Below, piece after piece: positions 2,331-59,200 of a DNA stretch of 64,000 nucleotides. Source of the stretch: Halothermothrix sp. (GTDB lineage: Bacteria > Bacillota > Halanaerobiia > DY22613); assembly GCA_016841825.1 (NCBI GenBank), contig JAENYK010000010.1, positions 62,001 through 126,000 on the forward strand, given 5' to 3'. Both the position numbers and the translations under genes were made by a program. Position 1 is the stretch's first letter; the number at the start of each line of letters is the position of its first letter. Below the pieces are notes generated by a model. It did no database searches. It was given only the letters and a program-made list of their open reading frames with translations, and had not been told where the DNA came from.

Positions 2331-3275
2331 TTAAATAATCATATTAACATAACCATAAGCATTCATTTTTAACCTTTTTGACGAATTCAAAGCTAACTCC
2401 TTTAATTGAAAAACCGAACCCGGTGTTATCGTATAAATCACTTCAGAAAATTTTTGACCAGCACCAGTCGCAGACCATTCACGTCCAACGATTGGTTCAA
2501 TATCCCCAATAAAATTCATCATATATTGAAAATTAGTATTTTGAGATTTATCAAAAACAATCGGCAGCAGAGCCAATACCCGGTCTTTTTCACCCATCTC
2601 CAGATGAAAACACAGCTCCTCATCTTTACTATCGAACTGCCATTTCCACATTCCAAAGCCACTGAGATTAAAAAGATTTCCCTCTGTGGGTAATTTATTG
2701 ATTTCTACAACTCGTACCCTGCCAAATCCTCTACTCCGATCTCCCCCCAATCCCTGAGTGGTTAGCTTATTAATTAAATCACATACCAGAGTATCCTGTA
2801 AAGAAGTCTTATAAAAGACATACCCCTTAAAACTCAAGCCAGATACCAGATGTTCTATTTCATGCAAAGTATGTTCTCTGGCACTTCCTAGTTCTCCATT
2901 TATAGAAGTCGATGCATAACTGCTAATATATTGACTCTCAAACTCATAAGCAGAAAACAGATCATTTCCTCGTGCATAAAGATACTCTAAACAATTATAC
3001 TGATAAGTTGGAATAACAACTGATTGTCTCTGGAGATCATAAGGATAGAAACAACTAAATCGAAAATTATCCCTAATATATTTACCTTCCGACAGGTATT
3101 TATTCGGATCATAGGTATCCATATTCATGGTTGCTTTTACAGCAGTGGCAGCCCCCCATAAATTTTTACCTGGAATATATCTTCTGGTTAAATCGACCAC
3201 ACCCATTTTTTTATAGCCAAGATGGATTGGAGATAAAGCCTTCAAGATAACCTCATATCCCGACCACTTATTCAT
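2331..3275 (-). CDS. RAMP-superfamily (Cas7-like) type III effector protein, last gene of operon
   Basis: A 314-residue RAMP protein. The N-terminus has LSPIHLG, then GVVDLTRRYIPG, matching the Cas7 arrangement in which an aspartate precedes the IPG loop. GLGGDRSRGFGRV near residue 200 is the glycine-rich loop of the superfamily. ATG 3275 is chosen over an upstream in-frame ATG because it overlaps the end of cmr5 by eight bases, as translationally coupled genes do. It is probably the backbone or capping subunit equivalent to Cmr6 or Csx10. The exact orthology is unclear: in the III-C order this slot is filled by a RAMP protein, but sequence alone does not say which. Confidence 0.65.
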   Translation of the reverse strand: MNKWSGYEVILKALSPIHLGYKKMGVVDLTRRYIPGKNLWGAATAVKATMNMDTYDPNKYLSEGKYIRDNFRFSCFYPYDLQRQSVVIPTYQYNCLEYLYARGNDLFSAYEFESQYISSYASTSINGELGSAREHTLHEIEHLVSGLSFKGYVFYKTSLQDTLVCDLINKLTTQGLGGDRSRGFGRVRVVEINKLPTEGNLFNLSGFGMWKWQFDSKDEELCFHLEMGEKDRVLALLPIVFDKSQNTNFQYMMNFIGDIEPIVGREWSATGAGQKFSEVIYTITPGSVFQLKELALNSSKRLKMNAYGYVNMII

Positions 3276-3684
3276 TATTCTCACCCTGTTCTTCAATTTT
3301 ATCAATAGCTTTTGCTCTATACAATGCATAAGTCAGCATCCCAACTATCAACTTCTTGATAAAAAGCAATTTATCTAAACTTAAATCTTTCAGTTCCATA
3401 AATTTTGCTAATTTATTATCCGCATTCTTTACAGAAAGAGACTGATCATATACTTCAATCAAATTGAATGCTGTATCATAAACTGCTAACCCAATCAATT
3501 TTTCCTCATTTGAACGAGTTGTTAACCAGAGAAAAAAAGCGTAAATTCCATTCTCCTGCAAAATACCGATGGACTTATTCAATACATTGATTATTGTGCT
3601 TTTTTTATTCTCATTTTTGACCTTCTCCACAATAGAGAACCCAGATTCAGCTATTATTCGTTCAAAGTTTTGGGCTGTCTGCAT
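3268..3684 (-). CDS. cmr5: Cmr5-like small subunit of the type III complex (Cas11 class)
   Basis: A small, helical protein of 138 residues without catalytic motifs. ENGIYAFFLWL near residue 45 and the C-terminal helix LFIKKLIVGMLTYALYRAKAI resemble the two conserved helices of Cmr5. In type III-B complexes Cmr5 copies form the inner filament facing the target RNA. The start is ATG 3684, nine bases behind AAGGAG; a longer frame would run far into cmr4. The gene overlaps cmr4 by 23 bases and the last RAMP gene by 8. Its position between cmr4 and a RAMP gene supports the call more than the sequence does. Confidence 0.7.
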   Translation of the reverse strand: MQTAQNFERIIAESGFSIVEKVKNENKKSTIINVLNKSIGILQENGIYAFFLWLTTRSNEEKLIGLAVYDTAFNLIEVYDQSLSVKNADNKLAKFMELKDLSLDKLLFIKKLIVGMLTYALYRAKAIDKIEEQGENNE

Positions 3685-4606
3685 ATTCATCAACTCCTTC
3701 ATTAATGATCTTACAGCCAATCCGACCAAACCCTCTTGTTGACATACCTCCTACACCCAAAAACTCCATATATTGATATCCTATATCAACTAGCTCTTGA
3801 ACGTAGTCAATATCAACTTTAGCTTTATGATAAAAATGTTCAGGATTGAGTAAGGTTGTCACTTGATAGAAAACAGTCATTCTTGGAATAGCTTCATAGG
3901 TAAACAAAGCTTTATCTATGGCTGCACCGGTTGCAGGATCAATAGCTACAGATGTTCTGACTTCCAGATTGTCGTTGACAACATGGTAAAAAATCTTATC
4001 ATTAACCAGAATAATCTTTTGATATACATGTTCTGGAAGATGGCTTTTTAGATATTTCGATAGATTATCTTCTACCTGCTCCTCCGACTCATTACACTGC
4101 TGATTCTGCTCAAATCTAGCTAAAAGAATCCAACTAAGGTTAATATCCTTACCTATAAATTCTTCCGTATTCAAAGGAAAGAATCTGTCATCGGGAATCT
4201 GAAGAGATAATAGCTCTTGTTCTTTAACAACTTCACTTAGATATTCCCTTATCCTCTGAGGTGTCGTTATCCAGACTGGCCCTAGCACAGTTGCGACTGG
4301 GAAAAGTAGTATAAGACCATCATAAAAATTGACTAAGCCTTTAAGTGACTTATAATCTCTGGTTGCCCCAAAAGTATGGCAGATCTTACAATCACCACAG
4401 TTAATATTTCCTCCGCATTTGTTCTCATTAGTCGCCAAAGCAGCATAACCTCTGACTGCACCTGAGATACTAGTCCCAGGGATTTTGGGAATATCATCCA
4501 TATCCCTAGTTATTGAGTTGTCGACTCGATCCATTCGATAACCCCCGGTTCCAATATGGATAGGATCTATCGCAGTCAGTAGCCGCAAATTTTTTTTACA
4601 TATCAT
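3662..4606 (-). CDS. cmr4: Cmr4-like Cas7 backbone nuclease
   Basis: A 314-residue RAMP protein. Residues 16-45 read HIGTGG, then RVDNSITRD, then IPGTSISGAVR, the Cas7/Cmr4 signature. D29 occupies the position of the aspartate that cleaves target RNA at 6-nt steps in Cmr4 and Csm3. A CGGNINCGDCKIC cluster near residue 65-77 probably binds zinc. GGMSTRGFGR at the C-terminal end is the glycine loop. ATG 4606, eight bases from GGAG, is preferred over GTG 4615. The gene overlaps cas10 by 11 bases. Several copies are expected to form the filament that holds the crRNA. Confidence 0.8.
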   Translation of the reverse strand: MICKKNLRLLTAIDPIHIGTGGYRMDRVDNSITRDMDDIPKIPGTSISGAVRGYAALATNENKCGGNINCGDCKICHTFGATRDYKSLKGLVNFYDGLILLFPVATVLGPVWITTPQRIREYLSEVVKEQELLSLQIPDDRFFPLNTEEFIGKDINLSWILLARFEQNQQCNESEEQVEDNLSKYLKSHLPEHVYQKIILVNDKIFYHVVNDNLEVRTSVAIDPATGAAIDKALFTYEAIPRMTVFYQVTTLLNPEHFYHKAKVDIDYVQELVDIGYQYMEFLGVGGMSTRGFGRIGCKIINEGVDEYADSPKL

Positions 4607-7600
4607 AGTGACCACTCCTTTCTATCTGATAACCATAAATGAAAGTCCTCATCTCCATCAAATCAAAAAAACGACCATCTTTCAATATCTGAAAAAACTC
4701 TCTCTTATCATCTTCTGTTGTAAAATAGGTTTCAAAATCACCAACACTATTAACTATTGTGATTAACAGTTGGTCTAAAATCGACTCCTGTCTGGAATCA
4801 CTCTGCCATGACTCAAAGGATTTATAAAAACTCTGCAGTTTCAGAGCTAACAATGTCTCCAAATTTTTCAAGCTGGAAGTTGAAACATTTCGGTCAGTGA
4901 GCTTCTGATTAATTATCGCTAGCTCTAAAAATTCTTCCATAAGTAATGGTCTGGTCTTAATTGGACTAATACGATGATTTCGTTTTAGTAATTTTGAACC
5001 AGAACTATCTAACTTGATATTCACCCTGTCTGCAGTTGTCGCTAAGAAAGTAAAATCTATCAAAGAAGGGGCAAATAATATTTCTGTGGATGGTTGTAGA
5101 TCGTTAATCTGTTGCACCTTTAATTCACCATTTACTCGCGTAACCAAATTAGTATAGTAACGGTCTTCCCAGCTTGAATCCATAGTATCTATCTCTGTAT
5201 CTATGCCACACGATAATTGCTGATGATGAAGAAGATTATCCTTAAATCGAAGATTCAGAGAGTATTTCTTATTGTCACAATTCTCATTGACCTCCTTAAC
5301 CTCTGCCTCTAGTCCATCAACCCGAATCTTCAACTCTTCCAGTTCTTCTTTGTTTTCTTTAGCCTTTTTTCTTTTGTTAGATTTTTCTCCTCCACCAGGT
5401 TTTTTGGTATTTTTAGCGTTTTTACTTTCTTCAGATTTTTCGGATTTGGTAACAATTGTCAGCTCTTGAAGTTCTAAATGATTTATTGACTGTCTAAATT
5501 CGCTAAGCATTCGTTTTCCAGAATCTAAAATCAAATAAAGTGGATACTTATGGCGAGCATAGACCAGTCCGAAATTAAGGCTTAATCTTCCAATAGCTTT
5601 GCCGAATAAACGATTGAATTCATAATAAAGATTCTCGACAACATTAACGCCTTCATTACCTGGAAGCAATAGCATAAATTCGTCCGCCATCTGATAGACA
5701 AACCTAGCTCTCAATACTATCTTTGGATTTAGCTTCAGATGAACATATTTAGTTTTATCTTCTCCATTTTCCTGGACAAATTTTACAGTTTTATCAAAAT
5801 ATTTTTGGATAATCTCCACTACCTCTTCAGAGAAATTCTTTTGAGGATAAGTGATAATTGATTCAATAAAAAGTTTTCCAGTTGCTTCTGATTGCACGAC
5901 CAACTTAAACAGACCATTATGCTGCTTTAACAAAGAATTAAAAACTTCTTTTACCAGCTCAGCATCCTCAATGTAAGATTTAATTACATCTTTTAATCTA
6001 TCCTCATCAAATATGTGAGTCCAAATACCTATATCTGCTTTACCAAAGTCATCACTCTGAATAGTAAAGCTATAACCAGTTAAATTTAAATCCTGTAGAA
6101 GAGATGAGATACTCTGAGTAAAATCCTCCACACTTCTGATAACTGCTCTAAGCCGTGAAGGTCCAGGTTTTTTCGTTTTATTCTTCCCTTGCCCCTGAGT
6201 TGTATAGATATAGTCTCCGCGTAACCAGAAGTCAAACATCCCAATATCACCGACCAGTAATACTATATTCTGATTACCATCCATTATCTGATCCATAAAT
6301 CTTGCATATGTCACCTCAGAATCTGCTGCTAACTGCAATACCTCTCTTCCTTTGCTCTTTCCAACTGTCCTTACATTATAACACCAATCACATATCTTAT
6401 CTTCCCAAATCCCATCATGCCGTCGATTCTCAGGCATCTTACCGCATAGTTGGCACACTCCTCTGCTGTTTTCGTTCCATTTGTTGATCCATGTCAATTC
6501 GGGGGTGTCCATATTCTTCAGATTATAGGGAGCAATCTCCTTCAATAGGTTCTTTTCATAAAGTTTTTTGAGTTTAATAACTGCTGAGCCAAAATTCAAT
6601 GTATTAGACATATAACGACAAGGTTCACAGTTCACCAGTGGAGAGATAACATCTTCAAATCTGGCGAATTCTTTTCTAACAGCATACTCAATATCTATTT
6701 TAAAGTACTTTAAATCGGGAACCAGAAAATAAATTCCATTGATATCTTCATAGATGACATTGCCCAGTGAATAGTCAACTTCAATCAGATCTTTAATCTC
6801 TCTAATCACTTCATCCAAAATCTGCGTACGGCCAATGAAGTCAGGCATCCTGAAGACCTGGGTTCTAAAATCCCGTCCAGGATATTGAATCCCTAAGATA
6901 TGCGGAGTTCCGTATAGGCAGTCAAATAAGTTAACCTTATTCTCCCAACCAGCTCCACCAGTTTCAAAAAGACGAGCGTACTTTGTACCAGAGCCGCCAG
7001 AGTTAATCTTGAAAAATCCAAGTCTATTCTTCGGTTCATGATATGCCGAAACTATTTCTTTAAACTTGTCATGGTTGAATTTTTTCCCACTGCCAACTAA
7101 TATATTGTAATAGATCGTTTGCCCCTCACTTACCTTTTTATTGGTATTTTTCCCTGTGTATTCATAATTTAAATGAGATTTCTTCTTATCGAACCATTTA
7201 ATTTCCTCCAGTTTTGCTTCTGGAAGCTTTTCAGTTGAAAGATAGAGGCTTATACTACCATTAGTAACTAGAAAATTGTAAGATTTATTTAATTTAACAA
7301 TAAAATTTTTATCATCAGTAGAAAGATTATCTTTTCGCAACAACAGTGAAACTATCATCACTTTAGTTATCGTAGCAGTTGAATACCCGTGATCCCAAAC
7401 GGTTGAATCGTTATCAGGAACCAGAGACATAGCCGATGCATTTAACATCTCTTTTGCAAACTCCATCAACTCTTGACGCAATAATGACAGCTGCCTTTCG
7501 TCAGTTTTTTCCAAATTGAAAATCCTACTTAGCAAAGAATTCTCTCCCACAGCTAAACCATTATAGATTTTCTGCCTTATCGCATCCAGATTATCAACAG

Positions 7601-8219
7601 ATTTGTACTCTCCACCAAAAGGATTTGCCACTTTCAATGATCTCCGCATATTTGAATAGTATAAATTCCCGTCTCTCTCTTCTTTTGAGTCAACTGTATC
7701 TGCCTGGGCTATACAATATTCTAAAAAGGAGAGTGGTCTTAGCTTATAAATAAAGTGATGACGAAAGGCTGAGAGAATTACTTCGCTCTCAGGATGACAA
7801 AATTGACTGCAGAATTCATCCAAATTCAATTCACTCCATTTTGTATGCACAGATTTGATATCTAATTTTTCCAGTAATTTAGGATTAATTAATTTTTCTG
7901 GTTCTGATACGCCTCTTCTTTTTCGGTTATTTTTGCTGGTTTTATTTTTCTTCGATTTACCATTAGACTTTTCATCATCATCTTTTTGTCGATATTGACT
8001 ATACAGTACATTTGTCACATCTTTTGAAGGAGAGTCCCTAAAAACTTCATAATCAAAGCCAAGTTCGATCATCGGTCTCATAACATGTAACTCGTGTGGC
8101 CACAAACAATCTTTATCTATAGATATTGGTGAAGCTACTTTACCAATATCGTGGATTAAACCTAACATCTCTCCGATTAAGATGAACTTTCTCTCTTCAA
8201 AACTAAATTGGCGTTCCAC
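4596..8219 (-). CDS. cas10: Very large Cas10 of Csx11 type with intact HD motif and altered palm motif
   Basis: This 1207-residue protein is the large subunit of the type III complex and far exceeds a usual Cmr2 (about 870-1000 residues). HDIGK near residue 25 marks the N-terminal HD nuclease. Two CxxC pairs (CQLCGK and CDWC, about 590-613) form the zinc site. GDIGMFDFW near 656 is the first palm strand. Where active Cas10 has GGDD, this protein has MADEF (about residue 844), so both glycines and one aspartate are changed. A lysine- and glutamate-rich coiled segment (about 920-985) follows. The start is GTG 8219, eight bases behind GGAGG. Size, palm decay and neighbours fit Csx11 of subtype III-C. 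Confidence 0.8.
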   Translation of the reverse strand: MERQFSFEERKFILIGEMLGLIHDIGKVASPISIDKDCLWPHELHVMRPMIELGFDYEVFRDSPSKDVTNVLYSQYRQKDDDEKSNGKSKKNKTSKNNRKRRGVSEPEKLINPKLLEKLDIKSVHTKWSELNLDEFCSQFCHPESEVILSAFRHHFIYKLRPLSFLEYCIAQADTVDSKEERDGNLYYSNMRRSLKVANPFGGEYKSVDNLDAIRQKIYNGLAVGENSLLSRIFNLEKTDERQLSLLRQELMEFAKEMLNASAMSLVPDNDSTVWDHGYSTATITKVMIVSLLLRKDNLSTDDKNFIVKLNKSYNFLVTNGSISLYLSTEKLPEAKLEEIKWFDKKKSHLNYEYTGKNTNKKVSEGQTIYYNILVGSGKKFNHDKFKEIVSAYHEPKNRLGFFKINSGGSGTKYARLFETGGAGWENKVNLFDCLYGTPHILGIQYPGRDFRTQVFRMPDFIGRTQILDEVIREIKDLIEVDYSLGNVIYEDINGIYFLVPDLKYFKIDIEYAVRKEFARFEDVISPLVNCEPCRYMSNTLNFGSAVIKLKKLYEKNLLKEIAPYNLKNMDTPELTWINKWNENSRGVCQLCGKMPENRRHDGIWEDKICDWCYNVRTVGKSKGREVLQLAADSEVTYARFMDQIMDGNQNIVLLVGDIGMFDFWLRGDYIYTTQGQGKNKTKKPGPSRLRAVIRSVEDFTQSISSLLQDLNLTGYSFTIQSDDFGKADIGIWTHIFDEDRLKDVIKSYIEDAELVKEVFNSLLKQHNGLFKLVVQSEATGKLFIESIITYPQKNFSEEVVEIIQKYFDKTVKFVQENGEDKTKYVHLKLNPKIVLRARFVYQMADEFMLLLPGNEGVNVVENLYYEFNRLFGKAIGRLSLNFGLVYARHKYPLYLILDSGKRMLSEFRQSINHLELQELTIVTKSEKSEESKNAKNTKKPGGGEKSNKRKKAKENKEELEELKIRVDGLEAEVKEVNENCDNKKYSLNLRFKDNLLHHQQLSCGIDTEIDTMDSSWEDRYYTNLVTRVNGELKVQQINDLQPSTEILFAPSLIDFTFLATTADRVNIKLDSSGSKLLKRNHRISPIKTRPLLMEEFLELAIINQKLTDRNVSTSSLKNLETLLALKLQSFYKSFESWQSDSRQESILDQLLITIVNSVGDFETYFTTEDDKREFFQILKDGRFFDLMEMRTFIYGYQIERSGHYDM

Positions 8220-9252
8220 CCTGTACACCTCCTCCATCAAGAGTTACTGAGTATTGTCCAAATAAACTTAATGACTTTATTAATTCTTCCAATCGAGAAA
8301 TGAGTTTAATAGAGTTTATTCGTGCCTTACCAAATCCAGCTTTTCTTTTTGCTGATATACCATACTTTTCCAACAAAGAGATTATCCCTTGTTCGATTAT
8401 TGATAAGTCTTGCACAATAATTTTTTTACAATCATCCTGCTCACTGCCTATTACATGAAAAGGTAAATATAAAAAGGTTAACTCCCCTGAAGTTTTTTCT
8501 GGAATAACTTCATATATGATTGGGCCAGTTTTCGATAGACCTGCACGAGTTACTCGATCATGAGGATTAATAACTGCATAGTCCAGTTTATCAAAAAATG
8601 ATGAATAAAAAGAGAGGCTTCCGCGTACCACAATCTCTTCTTTAAACCTACCCTGAGAAACGTCCTGGATTTTCTGCTGAAAATCCTCCAATGAAAAGCC
8701 TTTTGATAAAAACAGGCTATTTAAATAACTGGATACACTCTTCTGTTCAGTACCAAAAAGATAAATTAATCTAATTCTATCCTCGAATATTTTATCTTTT
8801 AATCCTGTATCATTTTGATTGTCTACATCCAGAGAATACTTGTTGACAAAGTTTTTCAGACATACCCAATGAAGATTTCCTTTCCAGCTGGAAGCGTGAA
8901 TCATCGGTAAACCGTACAGATGATCTTTAGTAACAGGATTATCAAAGAAATACAGAGGGTCATCATCTTTACTAAAATATTTCTCCAGAAACATAAATTC
9001 AATCTTAAACAAACAAGCATATGGGTGAAGACAGGCAAAGTTATCTTCTGGGTCAGTCATTTTAATCTTCTGTAAATTGAGATTACCATCCTTAGCTCGC
9101 ATCCAACATCTAAACTCTTTTTCTTTTTCTGATTTAAGATCTTTTTTATCTAAACAGAAAACACTCAGAGCTTTTACTCCAAATTCATCAAAATCCCATT
9201 TATTTAAACCATTATCCTGTAACTTATCCATTACACTATGGTAATAGTCCAT
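8203..9252 (-). CDS. RAMP-superfamily protein, Cmr6-like
   Basis: A 349-residue RAMP protein. GLPMIHASSWKGNLHW near residue 115 matches the GLP-x-I-x-x-SS-x-KG motif of Cmr6-type Cas7 proteins. AKRKAGFGKARI near residue 315 is the glycine loop. ATG 9252 is used: its A is also the last base of the cmr1 stop codon, and GGAGG lies upstream. It overlaps cas10 by 17 bases. By analogy with Cmr6 it would cap the complex at the 3' end of the crRNA. In ordinary III-B loci cmr6 lies last, not between cmr1 and cas10, so the name is tentative. Confidence 0.65.
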   Translation of the reverse strand: MDYYHSVMDKLQDNGLNKWDFDEFGVKALSVFCLDKKDLKSEKEKEFRCWMRAKDGNLNLQKIKMTDPEDNFACLHPYACLFKIEFMFLEKYFSKDDDPLYFFDNPVTKDHLYGLPMIHASSWKGNLHWVCLKNFVNKYSLDVDNQNDTGLKDKIFEDRIRLIYLFGTEQKSVSSYLNSLFLSKGFSLEDFQQKIQDVSQGRFKEEIVVRGSLSFYSSFFDKLDYAVINPHDRVTRAGLSKTGPIIYEVIPEKTSGELTFLYLPFHVIGSEQDDCKKIIVQDLSIIEQGIISLLEKYGISAKRKAGFGKARINSIKLISRLEELIKSLSLFGQYSVTLDGGGVQGGTPI

Positions 9253-10154
9253 CACTTTTTTTGCCTCCTTTCAATCATATTATTTAACTCATTATAGCGC
9301 AGTACCCTATTGGTGTACTGCCCAAAATTAAGCTTATTGAAATCATCTTTATCACATACATATCCCCAGGTTCTTTTCATAATCTTGGCATCATAATCCT
9401 TGTACTGAAAAGAAAAAATTTTTTTAGAAACACCCAATCTTCCTCTCAAAAATTCATATAATTTATAATTTTTACAGTTATATGGGTTTCCTTTTGAGTC
9501 AAGAAGAAGAAAATCATTAATTTGCTTTTTTGTAAAATGGTCATCTATGAACCAAAAATTTCTCAAATCAGGATGGTTTTGATTATTTCTCTTATTGCTT
9601 CCCACAGATTTCAACCAATTTTTAACGTCACTAAAGGAACATGAATTCTGAAAATCGACTATTTCAATTTCAGCAATTCCATCAGAACTTTTCTTTGCGG
9701 GATTTCTTCCTCCAATCGAGCCATATTGGGTAATTATCTTTAATGTATTAGCAAAAAGCCAATAGAGTTCTGGACTAATTGGCCGTAAAGGCATCAGAGC
9801 AATTGTAGCACCCCTATCCACTTCAAGAACTTCTAAAGATCTATCATCTAAACTCCACTTGAATGCTGAAGATAAACCTCCACAACCAAAAAATTGACAT
9901 ACTGGACAAATATCCTTTCTCATTCTACCTATAGCCTGATGATATCCCAAAGTGTCCAACAACTGCTGAAATTTTTGATTATCTAATTCGCACCTGTTTT
10001 CTGAAGTTGGACTACAGGCATATCCGCCCATTCCACGAACTAATGCTTCCATCCACCACCTGATAGAACCAATCAAACCTGTCATGTTAAACCTAGCTTC
10101 ACCATCAATACCTCCAGTGTGAATATTTGTTTTTGGTGTGATTACTAATATCAA
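9252..10154 (-). CDS. cmr1: Cmr1, type III RAMP protein
   Basis: The motifs LIGSIRWWMEALVRG and GGYACSPT (about residues 25-50) and CPVCQFFGCGG (about 100) are the clear hallmark of Cmr1. Cmr1 sits at the 3' end of the crRNA in the III-B complex and helps admit target RNA. The likely start is TTG 10154, eight bases behind GGAGG; GTG 10163 overlaps that site. This is the first gene of the effector operon. The 140 bases upstream are AT-rich and must hold the promoter. The CxxC pairs suggest a bound metal. Confidence 0.88.
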   Translation of the reverse strand: MILVITPKTNIHTGGIDGEARFNMTGLIGSIRWWMEALVRGMGGYACSPTSENRCELDNQKFQQLLDTLGYHQAIGRMRKDICPVCQFFGCGGLSSAFKWSLDDRSLEVLEVDRGATIALMPLRPISPELYWLFANTLKIITQYGSIGGRNPAKKSSDGIAEIEIVDFQNSCSFSDVKNWLKSVGSNKRNNQNHPDLRNFWFIDDHFTKKQINDFLLLDSKGNPYNCKNYKLYEFLRGRLGVSKKIFSFQYKDYDAKIMKRTWGYVCDKDDFNKLNFGQYTNRVLRYNELNNMIERRQKK

Positions 10155-10263
10155 ATTTACCACCTCCGCAATGTTTAGTTAAAAGTTGTCCTCTCTATTT
10201 AATCTCAAATTTTGACATTATATATCATTTTCGACATCAATTACGTATTTCCTCCCTTCCATA

Positions 10264-19581: not shown

Positions 19582-19619
19582 ATTAAATTCCTCCCTATAA
19601 TAAATTATTTGAATATCTT

Positions 19620-19700
19620 ACTACAATCCCTCACAGATAGATTATAATGCTAATCAACACGCACAGATACTGAGTTCATCAATTTGATATTTAGTAATGC
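19620..19700 (-). repeat. Segment matching the relic CRISPR region at 21.2 kb
   Basis: About 80 bases at the trailer side of array 3 resemble 21193-21270. A weak match (about 19 of 30) to the relic 30-nt repeat is followed by a clearer shared stretch (CACGCACAGATAC here, CACGCATAGATAC there). It suggests that array 3 lies inside, or beside, a decayed older locus. Confidence 0.4.
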
Positions 19701-19726
19701 CAATCCAGTTCTTTTTAAGAAAAACT

Positions 19727-20764
19727 ATCTCAATCCCAGCACCCGCGTAGGGTGCGACCTTATCCTAAATTATGAGTACCAAAGCCTAAATCTCATTTCA
19801 ATCCACGCACCCGCGTAGGGTGCGACGGGCTGGAAAATGCTTGTTAATCCTCGTGTTAAATTTCAATCCACGCACCCGCGTAGGGTGCGACCTCCGCACT
19901 TCTTTGAGTGGCAAACCTAACTCCGTATTTCAATCCACGCACCCGCGTAGGGTGCGACCGCTATTTGTCCAAAAAGTAACATAATTTGACTCAATTTCAA
20001 TCCACGCACCCGCGTAGGGTGCGACATAGAGAGTCTAGCTATTGCACATGGTAGCACAAATTTCAATCCACGCACCCGCGTAGGGTGCGACGGATAATGG
20101 ATTTAGTTTCACAAGGAGCTTCAAGAATTTCAATCCACGCACCCGCGTAGGGTGCGACCCAAGCGGAGGGCGGTCGCATTAAGGCTACTTATCGATTTCA
20201 ATCCACGCACCCGCGTAGGGTGCGACTTACATCATTTGTATATAACGAAGCCGGTCTCATATTTCAATCCACGCACCCGCGTAGGGTGCGACAAGAAAAT
20301 CAAAATGCGGCCAAGAAAATGTATCAAATTTCAATCCACGCACCCGCGTAGGGTGCGACTAGGCACATGTATATTCCACACAAATTCAAAAATCTATTTC
20401 AATCCACGCACCCGCGTAGGGTGCGACTAATATTTGCTGGGAGTGTGGCAATCACATATTTATTTCAATCCACGCACCCGCGTAGGGTGCGACTGGAAAT
20501 TATGATGCAGAAGGAGAAGGTGATGGAATTTCAATCCACGCACCCGCGTAGGGTGCGACGCAGGGATAGATTTTTTAGATATTGCAGCAATTATGATTTC
20601 AATCCACGCACCCGCGTAGGGTGCGACAATAATAAGGAGGGCAACAATATGATGATATATTGTATTTCAATCCACGCACCCGCGTAGGGTGCGACTCGCG
20701 TAGCAACGGGCATTGCAACTATTACAGCAAAAATTTCAATCCACGCACCCGCGTAGGGTGCGAC
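19727..20764 (-). CRISPR. CRISPR array 3: 16 repeats of 32 bp, 15 spacers, I-C-type repeat (GCGTAG variant)
   Basis: Repeats end at 19758, 19826, 19891, 19958, 20025, 20091, 20158, 20226, 20292, 20359, 20427, 20493, 20559, 20627, 20695 and 20764; spacers are 33-37 bp. The repeat is identical to that of array 2. The oldest copy (19727-19758) is degenerate: ATCTCAATCCCAGCACCC on the plus strand. The leader lies at the high-coordinate end, as in the other two arrays. No spacer appears in two arrays on reading. Confidence 0.98.
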
Positions 20765-21068
20765 AGTAGCCCCCAAAAGGCTAGCAATACCAATGGCTCA
20801 GATCACGGTTTCCGCGAACCTCCAAATATGATGTATTTTTACCACCCTAATTTTACAACAATTTCACGAAAACCTATGTGTGGCTTTATGCGCGAACCTC
20901 CCAGGGTTTTTATGTTCACTTCAGGTCCGCGGAAAACCTATTATATTACTCTCAACCTTCAGGATTATTTTCACAAAAATATTTCCAATGTAGTTCATTA
21001 AATATTTTCTTTAAATTGAAGTCCAAAGAATAATTTCTTATACCAGATATAAGTGGATTTACCACCCC
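20765..21068 (-). promoter_or_regulatory. Leader of CRISPR array 3
   Basis: The first 190 bases are nearly the same as leaders 1 and 2. The inverted pair is TTTCCGCGAACCT (20809-20821) and AGGTCCGCGGAAA (20923-20935, one base changed). Weaker similarity to the region behind leader 1 continues to about 21068, ending in a shared TTTACCACCCC. From there to the DUF1330 gene (about 470 bases) there is no gene, only the relic array and its leader. Confidence 0.85.
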
Positions 21069-21128
21069 TTTTTAAACACTTATACTAAACCAAAATTATT
21101 AATGTCTTTGCAAAGACATAATAATTTC

Positions 21129-21222
21129 GTTTCAACTCCTCGTAGATAGGCTTAAACTCATTTCCCAAAACAATTCAAATGGGAGATGTAAAGTTTCAAT
21201 TCCTCATAGGTAAGCTATAAAT
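21129..21222 (-). CRISPR. Relic of a second CRISPR type: two decayed 29-30 nt repeats
   Basis: GTTTCAACTCCTCGTAGATA at 21129 and GTTTCAATTCCTCATAGGTA at 21193 each start a 29-30 base unit, 35 bases apart. This is the common I-B-type repeat (crRNA tail ATTGAAAC on the minus strand), seen here with several differences between the two copies. With only two diverged copies the array is probably dead. An 18-bp palindrome, ATGTCTTTG/CAAAGACAT (21102-21119), adjoins it. Confidence 0.55.
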
Positions 21223-21342
21223 CCATTCAGCACGCATAGATACAGGCTTCAGCAAATCAGCGTATAATCGTAAAAATTCCATCTCATTTCAATCAAACTA
21301 ACTCCATTCCAGTATTACCAACAAACTCAGCTGAACAGTTTT

Positions 21343-21386
21343 GTCGTCGACCCCCAGGGATTTTTGCACTACTGACGATCGACGAC
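21343..21386 (-). promoter_or_regulatory. Probable leader remnant of the relic 30-nt repeat array
   Basis: GTCGTCGA (21343-21350) and TCGACGAC (21379-21386) form an inverted repeat around CCCCCAGGGATTTTTGC. Leaders of 30-nt repeat arrays in clostridia often carry this kind of GTCGACGAC element. It lies on the correct side, 120 bases upstream (minus strand) of the first relic repeat. Confidence 0.45.
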
Positions 21387-21542
21387 AGATTATTTACTCA
21401 AAATCTGCAAAATCCTACTATACTGTTTTTCTCTCCCATTAATAAAAATTCCTGCTTTTGAATTCATTTTCTCACTAAGAACCGACAAGTAAACCAATCT
21501 AACTACTCTTCTGCTCAACTCATGAATACGGAGAAATAATTA

Positions 21543-52464: not shown

Positions 52465-52576
52465 GTGATCAACCTCCATTCATTTTATAATACTTTATGC
52501 TATTATTTATGCATCGGTTACAAACATTATGTTTATTATAATATTTAAAGATTAACTTTTGCCCTGGAAAAGACTG

Positions 52577-52685
52577 TATTATGTACACATCCGGATCTAC
52601 AGGGACTCCTAAAGGAGTTATGGTAGAACATCAGGGGGTAGTTCGTTTAGTCAGTAAACCCAACTATCTGGAGTTGACCGACAAT
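52577..52685 (+). pseudogene. Fragment of an NRPS adenylation domain
   Basis: 109 bases match 58226-58334, the A-domain of the last NRPS module, on the opposite strand. Only a few bases differ. Translated on the plus strand it gives [12 protein letters not shown] and the following HQGVVRLV segment. A weaker match may begin near 52563. The frame ends soon after, so it cannot make a working protein. It is a copy cut out of its context by recombination or transposition. Confidence 0.85.
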
Positions 52686-56260: not shown

Positions 56261-59200
56261 CTACTTTACCTGATTGGTAAATATTTTACAAAACTTCTTG
56301 CCAAATCCAATTACCGCAGGTTTGACAAAGATGGAAAAATGATCTCCTGACACCTGATGCACCATCATCGGTAACTGACAGTAACGATTCCAGTCATCCC
56401 GATTGATAAAATTCTGCTGATTGGCTTCAAAATAGTGCAATTGGCTCTGAATTCGTCGTTTGGGAACATATTTAGCTCTGGCTATTGAGAGATCTCGAAT
56501 AATGTTAACATATTTAATCAGATCATCTTTTCCCAATTGGGCAAAATCAGGAATTGATCTGGCCAACGATTGGGGGATAGACTCTTTAAATTCTGGCGAA
56601 TCGGGATTCAGTTTCTTCATTTGCCTGACCATTTTCCTCCACTCTGGTGTTTTGGGGGGTTGGGAGTCAATTATGGAGATAAATGCTACTTCTTCGCCCA
56701 GAATCTCCAACTGATTGACCATCTCAAAGGCGATAGTTCCCCCAATGCTCCAACCACCGATCTGATAGGGACCTGATGGCTGTACTTCTTGAATAATGGC
56801 TAGATATTTTGCTGCCAGTTCTTCTATGGTTACATCTTGAGATTCATAGTTTTCCATACCTTCCAGCCGGATCCCCCAGTAATTGAACACAGGATCCAGA
56901 TATTCTACCAGTTGCAGATATGCCCCTACTTCACCACTTCCGGCATGGATAAAGAAATGATGTTTATCAGCAGCCTTGCCAGTTCTCAATAAGATGAGAT
57001 TCTTATCCTTCTCCAACTGATTGGCTTTATCTGCATGAGCAGCCTGGTCAATATACCTGGCTAAATCATTAATCTGTGGTCTCTGGAAAATCTCCCGCAG
57101 TGCAATCTCTACTCCCAATTGTTGATAAATCTTTCTGACCAGTACTGTTGCTTTTAGAGATTGACCACCTAGCTCGTAAAAGTCATCGGTAACTCCGACC
57201 CGCTCCACCCCTAAAGTCTCTGCCCAGATGCGTGCCAATTCTATCTCTGTCTCTGTCTCCGGAGCCAGATACTCAGAGCGCAAGATGTTCTTATCTGGCT
57301 CCGGTAATGACTGACGATCAATCTTCCCATTGATATTTAATGGCAGTTTAGCTAACTGAACAAAATAGGCGGGAATCATGTATTCAGGCAGTTCTGTTCC
57401 TACAAACTCTCTCAATTCAGTTATCGATAGTTCCCGATCAGCAGTAATATATGCTGTCAGATCTCTGGTTCCCTGACGGTTGGTATAAGCCAATACTATA
57501 ACTTCCCGTATATCCGGATGACTTAACAGACGATTTTCAATCTCGCCCGGTTCGATTCTAAAACCGCGAACCTTTAGTTGATCATCCATCCGACCCCCGA
57601 ACTCAATAGTACCATCAGAGAGCCATCTACCTTTATCACCAGTTCGATATAGCCTACCTCCGTGAATGAATGGGTTTGCGATAAATTTCTTCCGGGTTAG
57701 CTGATGATTGTTCAGATAACCTCTCGCCAGGCCAGATCCACCTGTATAGATCTCTCCATAAACCCCAATAGGTACTGGATTTAAGTCCTGATCGAGAATA
57801 TAGACAGTCGTATTGTTAATCGGTCTCCCCAGTGGAATACTCAACATATCTGCAGGTACTCCGCTAATCCGGTAACAACAGGTAAATGTAGTGTTTTCCG
57901 TCGGACCATAACCGTTGATCAAAGTCGTCTCAGGCAGTAATTCCAGTGCTTTTCTGATATGTGCTACCGACAATGCTTCACCTCCAACCAGTAAATTTCT
58001 TAAACCTTGCAGAGCTTCGGGTACCTCATCAATTATCCGATTGAATAAAGAGGAGGTCAGCCAACAGGTTGTCACCTGCTGCTGTTGCATTAATTGTGAT
58101 AGATCGTTTAGAGATAGTACCAGTTCCCGGGGAACCAGAATCAACTGGCAGCCATTTAGCAGGCTGACCCAGATTTCAAAGGTGGAGGCATCAAAGGTAT
58201 ATGGTGCCATCTGCATAATCCGCTCATTGTCGGTCAACTCCAGATAGTTGGGTTCTCTGACTAAACGAACTACCCCCTGATGTTCTACCATAACTCCTTT
58301 CGGAGTTCCTGTAGATCCAGATGTGTACATAATATAGATCAGGTCTTCCGGACTATTGATATCTTCCAGATTAGTCGAAGGATAATCTGCTAACTCCAGG
58401 TGAGCAATATCCAGCATCTCTCCTGTCCAGTGAGTCAGGTTCTCGATTATCTGACGCGACTCCTCGTTCTGTTCGTCTTCGCTGTTAATTAATACCAATT
58501 TTGTATCACTATCTGTCAACATGTACTGAATTCGCTTTCTGGGATAACTGGCATCTATTGGCAGGTAACAGCCGCCGGCTTTTAAAACTGCCAAAAGGCT
58601 GACTATCAGCTCAGGTGATTGATTCAGAACCAGGCCGACAGGTGTATTGATCTCAACTCCCCGCTCCCGCAAAACTCTTGCCAATCGATTGGCCCGTTCA
58701 TTCAGTTCCCGATAAGCAATGGTCTTATTTTGACTGCTGACAGCTACTCTCTCCGGAGTTTTTACCACTTGTTCTGCAAAAAGTTGCTGAACAGTTCTGG
58801 TAATCGGCAGCCGAACGGTCTCCTGCCAGCTGGCCAAAATCTGCTCCCTCTCTTCAGTGGTCGCCAGATCAATCTCGGCAATCAGTCTGTCTGGATTTCT
58901 GACCACTTGCCGAATTAGCTGACTAAAATGTCCCGCCATCCGTTCCACTGTCGACTTCTTCCAGAGACTGGTGCGATATTCCAGACTGAAGTGAATAGTT
59001 TCACCGACTTCTGCTGCAAATAGACTCAGGTCAAATTTGGCCACAGTTTTTTCAACTCTGTATGGAGAGATCTGTAAATTGGTCTCTCCTGCTGGTGTCG
59101 TATCCATATTCTGCAGGGTAAATAACACGTCAAAGAGAGGATTGCGGCTCATATCTCTTACTAAATCTAGCTTATCAACTAACATTTCAAATTGATAACT

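Follow-up and report, generated by a model that had tools for sequence, protein, structure and literature searches.

A 64,000-nucleotide stretch of contig JAENYK010000010.1 from Halothermothrix sp. (hereafter, the window) contains three type I-C CRISPR arrays located after a type III operon (2331-10163). Beside the third of these lies a minimal CRISPR array of another kind, which occupies 21129-21222 on the minus strand and has its leader at the right (21223-21386; Table 1). The leader-proximal repeat scores 38.4 bits against the Rfam model CRISPR-DR2 (RF01315; gathering score, 37). Its first 28 nucleotides are those of the repeat of another genome from the same family (G001). On the minus strand, this repeat ends in ATTGAAAC, which we take to be the usual kind of crRNA 5' handle; given the GAAAC at that end, the array is read leftward from a leader at the right. 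A degenerate repeat pattern allowing up to three mismatches hits the window exactly twice, whereas 100 dinucleotide-preserving shuffles contain no hit. Repeat plus spacer give a period of 64 bp. The 44-bp element stands 120 bp from the repeat, in the main distance class, and 41 of its 44 positions fit the family consensus. DR2-type membership is thus indicated by the repeat model, by two repeats enclosing a 34-nucleotide spacer, and by a leader element on the correct side. A scan of the leader returned four promoter-like sites, compared with 2.3 in shuffled sequence, and no terminator-like site; the one weak promoter-like site on its minus strand is within chance expectation.

Table 1. Positions of the small array, its leader, and neighboring CRISPR features within the window
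Feature	Position	Strand	Basis
Degraded repeat of a second, decayed array	19620..19649	-	20/30 to consensus; local alignment
Truncated leader of the decayed copy	19650..19739	-	alignment to 21197-21312
Type I-C array 3 (neighbor)	19727..20764	-	repeat family D1
I-C leader of array 3	20765..21030	-	direct repeats D4, D5
Degenerate leader-distal (terminal) repeat	21129..21158	-	23/30 identical to proximal repeat
Single spacer, 34 nt	21159..21192	-	between both repeats
Leader-proximal repeat, intact, CRISPR-DR2 type	21193..21222	-	Rfam RF01315; G001 identity
Leader body, 120 bp	21223..21342	-	aligns with G001 leaders; length in main class
44-bp leader element, half-sites GTCGTCGA/TCGACGAC, core TTTTTGCACTA (plus-strand reading)	21343..21386	-	family consensus

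A preliminary description of this DNA had reported two diverged repeats of a second CRISPR type, correctly oriented behind an inverted pair typical of leaders, with a possible 35-base fossil spacer (21158-21192) between them. Both repeats are present, but the right-hand one is not diverged; a unit does separate them, but it spans 34 nucleotides (21159-21192). The assignment to a second type agrees with the CRISPR-DR2 score of 21193-21222 and with the recurrence of leader and repeat in relatives. The orientation was also correctly called, with leader and element on the expected side, as in relatives; a correction is that the array is read on the minus strand. The inverted pair proved to be a leader feature of exactly 44 bp that is conserved beside arrays in many genomes.

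Two features of local sequence were recorded in addition. The spacer is partly self-complementary (CATTTCCCA ... TGGGAGATG, with one G-T), and the gap separating the small array from the I-C leader holds a nearly perfect 29-bp palindrome (21096-21124). The palindrome was considered as a conserved part of the unit and rejected, being found elsewhere among the fetched loci only in L179.

Array 3 shares its repeat type with a I-C locus that includes Cas8c on contig C41. Its leader carries the direct repeats D4, present in three copies (arrays 1-3), and D5, present in two (arrays 1 and 3). The type III operon encodes Cmr1, Cmr4, a weak Cmr6-like protein, a Csx10-like protein, and a Csx11-like Cas10, with no Cas1 or Cas6 among the proteins scanned. 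Within the scanned part of the window, the cas genes are those of type III, and none of the DR2-associated type was recognized. Relatives of the Csx11-like Cas10 occur in 3 of 121 genomes (own included); a link between the operon and DR2 arrays was discarded after none of five repeats sought was found in the G001 stretches around the Csx11-like Cas10 copies. Elsewhere in the genome are a type III-A locus, a type I-C locus, and a type I-B Cas1, with separate repeats for each. The type I-B Cas1b and Cas6 genes reside on other contigs, and the Cas1b adjoins an array with a different repeat. Several Cas6-like matches, two of them with internal stop codons, lie by the III-A locus (G000:C2:249.8-253.5 kb; L091-L092). 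The window also contains a 112-nucleotide inverted repeat (52574-52685 and 58226-58337), the arms of which are 95% complementary and separated by 5,540 nucleotides.

Relatives of the array and their cas genes

The preliminary description had proposed searching for related repeats and comparing the leader, and both searches returned relatives. Intact arrays with the DR2 repeat (two or fewer mismatches) were found in 4 of 61 genomes, own included; G001, the one other same-family genome in that sample, contains the repeat 43 times. Positions 21193-21394 match a profile built from ten G001 leaders with small gaps only (nhmmer E = 6.6e-25). At E ≤ 0.001, 31 of 151 genomes, counting this one, contain a match to leader plus repeat. 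About 25 kb of G001 form a CRISPR island with about ten DR2 leaders, in which DR2 arrays alternate with arrays of two other repeat types (G001:C1:715-740 kb; L062-L063). No Cas1 was found in this complete genome, and one Cas6 is far from the island. The window likewise interleaves I-C and DR2 arrays, as G001 does three types, an arrangement relevant to the growth and loss of array islands.

Several lines of evidence connect the DR2 arrays with type I-B systems. Cas8b and/or Cas1b adjoin such arrays in four genomes (G041, G115, G143, and G099), and Cas1b does so in another (G133). Furthermore, Cas1b is present in 14 of 21 genomes with a repeat or leader match, as opposed to 16 of 59 without (Fisher p = 0.003). 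The assignment is not exclusive, since a type III-A Cas10 gene adjoins such arrays in G095. Among 103 fetched genome loci, a Cas1b relative was found in 17, Cas8b in 3, and Csm1 in 4; most such arrays are therefore without cas genes in the fetched stretch. Compared with the RF01315 arrays of Bacillota, which in several genomes stand beside type I-B cas genes, the array described here has the same repeat sequence and length, and spacer length, leader, 44-bp element, and orientation are held in common. It differs in containing one spacer only and in the lack of recognized cas genes of that type in the scanned part of the window. In our assessment, the unit is very probably a residual array with one spacer and an intact leader, belonging to the DR2 repeat family associated with type I-B and adjoining I-C array 3.

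State of the array and its spacer

The locus at 21129-21386 had been described as decayed, and a non-functional fossil would account for an array of just two repeats whose terminal repeat has 7 differences from the proximal repeat over 30 positions. The genome, rated 99.7% complete, also contains no other copy of the DR2 repeat at up to three mismatches and no second copy of the 21223-21386 leader, contrary to the suggestion that the host might still have such arrays elsewhere. The pattern of conservation points the other way. Mean identity to the G001 leaders is 0.87 for the repeat, 1.00 for the first four leader bases, and 0.83 for the element, yet only 0.46 for the leader body and 0.42 for sequence outside these parts, such that the proximal repeat, leader start, and element were kept while the body diverged. 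Degeneracy of the terminal repeat is likewise normal: in 70 related arrays with at least two repeats, the end repeat matches the proximal repeat at 19-30 of 30 positions, a range that includes the 23 observed here, while internal repeats average 29.8 of 30. Nor is the small size exceptional, as 6 of 81 arrays with this leader, none of them cut by a contig end, have two repeats (21129-21222 and five others) and 11 have one. Degradation beyond that of related arrays was not observed. Taken together, the ordinary end repeat and the conserved leader parts indicate a short array with a normal degenerate end rather than an eroded one; we consider a fossil unlikely, and the leader may still be used.

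Two repeats around one guide, located beside CRISPR loci, also recall CreTA (PMC8501985), in which a minimal CRISPR with two degenerate repeats supplies a guide that represses a neighboring small RNA toxin gene. Relative to CreTA, the array here differs in having an intact leader, an intact proximal repeat, and no neighboring target that we could find. The leader is full and canonical, element included, and the proximal repeat is not degenerate. Across the window and eight stretches of the same genome, the spacer has no 10-nucleotide seed match, and its best ungapped match (22 of 34) is what shuffled spacers attain (21-23); no partial complementarity of the guide to a neighboring promoter was found. 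A CreTA-like function is thus highly improbable. A search of phage data with the spacer had also been suggested, and no convincing target emerged. Scanning viral contigs with spacer fragments three times yielded 0, 2, and 1 stretches, with whole-spacer agreements of 22, 26, and 27 of 34 that are too weak to count as targets; of 27 matched phage records, the best 10 all had an E of 3. In 101 relatives, the only match at up to three mismatches was the array itself. The spacer has no identifiable target in the data searched.

A copy to which the term "decayed" does apply lies to the left of I-C array 3, where the preliminary description had missed a second array of the DR2 kind, with a degraded repeat and a truncated leader (19582-19739). 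The copy at about 19620-19739 was recognized by pairwise alignment, with 500 shuffles and real stretches of the window as controls. Positions 19624-19740 and 21197-21312 are identical in 77 of 117 columns (66%), with a local alignment score of 34.8 compared with at most 21.1 for 500 dinucleotide shuffles and 22.4 for the best unrelated stretch of the window. The profile of G001 leaders did not detect 19620-19739, returning only the two known repeats of the window at better than E = 0.05. The decayed leader has lost its 44-bp element, and its last bases overlap the end repeat of array 3. This copy resembles the intact leader here more than the latter resembles the G001 leaders, a sign that a duplication may have occurred within this lineage. 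The one-spacer array itself is an ordinary leftover; its conserved leader element deserves the closer attention.

Occurrence and spacing of the leader element

A pattern comprising the arms and part of the core matched genome contigs at 103 stretches and viral contigs at 3, and 109 elements were collected in total. Ten lay within 150 bases of a contig end and were left out of the flank count; rows L137, L144, L158, and L182 were re-sorted by hand because their array calls were due to chance or masked bases. The array-side flank reached 150 bases or more for 99 elements: an array stands there in 75 cases, one lone repeat in 15, a degraded repeat in 2, and nothing in 7. A repeat or array is thus found on the expected side in 92 of 99, mostly 96-146 bp away, with single repeats at 118-144 bp and degraded repeats at 121-130 bp. 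Arrays also occur within 600 bases on the opposite side of seven elements, of which five belong to one array cluster. When the core was searched for without the arms, 24 of 398 genomes yielded 33 places and a reversed control yielded none; the element in this window does not fit the core pattern exactly. For the 30 such loci that were fetched, both arms were present at 6 or more of 7 positions in 26, one weak arm in 1, and neither in 3. The element is a hallmark of the DR2 array family and is recognizable enough to find CRISPR leaders where one repeat or none remains.

Spacing between repeat and element is not continuous. In 102 non-redundant leaders, distances cluster near 97, 107, 121, 133, and 145 bp. 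Using one leader per organism (n = 81, with L178-L200 each treated as its own organism), the best period was 12.3 bp with a strength of 0.66, compared with 0.37 at 10.5 bp. The strength at 12.3 bp was not reached in 5,000 sets of jittered distances (p = 0.0002), a null that does not model ancestry. A weaker version of the 44-bp element stands in the type I-B leader of the same genome, at a preferred distance of 133 bp from the repeat of that leader; its two arms depart from consensus in their outer triplets.

A literature search covering titles and the starts of abstracts gave no description of the 44-bp element, and a query with the arm sequence returned one unrelated paper. A 2025 leader-motif catalogue (cited in PMC12259127) and a 2021 phasing study may already list it.

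Possible role of the leader element

The symmetry of the element could reflect either a protein site or a fold. Structured RNA or cruciform-forming DNA is suggested by the predicted single-stranded DNA fold (-11.5 kcal/mol, z = -4.1) and by the outermost pair, which is altered on both sides in 3 of the 103 elements of a looser collection. Across 88 distinct elements, however, facing positions 8-14 pair at or hardly above the rate expected from independence, and changes at position 7 are not matched in its partner; since the search pattern dictated positions 0-6, these carry no information on covariation. With compensatory change almost absent from the arms, a DNA site bound by protein seems more plausible than an RNA stem. 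If a single protein reads the inverted half-sites, both the pairing rate and the outer-pair changes are explained, whereas a stem explains only the latter. We therefore regard a structural role as quite unlikely.

As a protein-bound site, the element may serve as a double-stranded DNA docking site with two inverted half-sites around a fixed core, and the bound protein would position the Cas1b-Cas2 integrase at the leader-repeat junction. We give such a docking role in spacer insertion by Cas1b-type systems an even chance. The leader would also drive transcription of the array. Docking of the integrase is the most likely role of the element, but G001 keeps about ten such leaders with no Cas1 found, which does not favor a role in insertion only, and the element may act in transcription. 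Distance steps of about 12 bp, rather than the 10.5 bp of a plain helical turn, speak against docking.

Among the closest known systems are the IHF-dependent type I-E and I-F leaders, in which a conserved DNA motif upstream of the first repeat likewise lies at preferred distances from it. Relative to these, the element here has a different sequence and steps of about 12 bp; we know of no protein that binds it. More tentatively, and with less confidence than for docking itself, the element might bind a non-IHF DNA-bending protein or a Cas1b-Cas2 accessory factor, anchor insertion in type I-B and some type III arrays across Bacillota, need distance steps of about 12 bp, and allow an integrase from another locus to serve orphan leaders such as the present one in trans. 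For the present locus, the unit was probably left behind when arrays of the DR2 kind were reduced or lost, and the type I-B system encoded on another contig could in principle still fill it or read it in trans. The fixed layout of the element offers a direct test of insertion targeting in Bacillota type I-B systems. Leader elements with DR2 arrays also occur in IMG/VR viral contigs (L201-L203).
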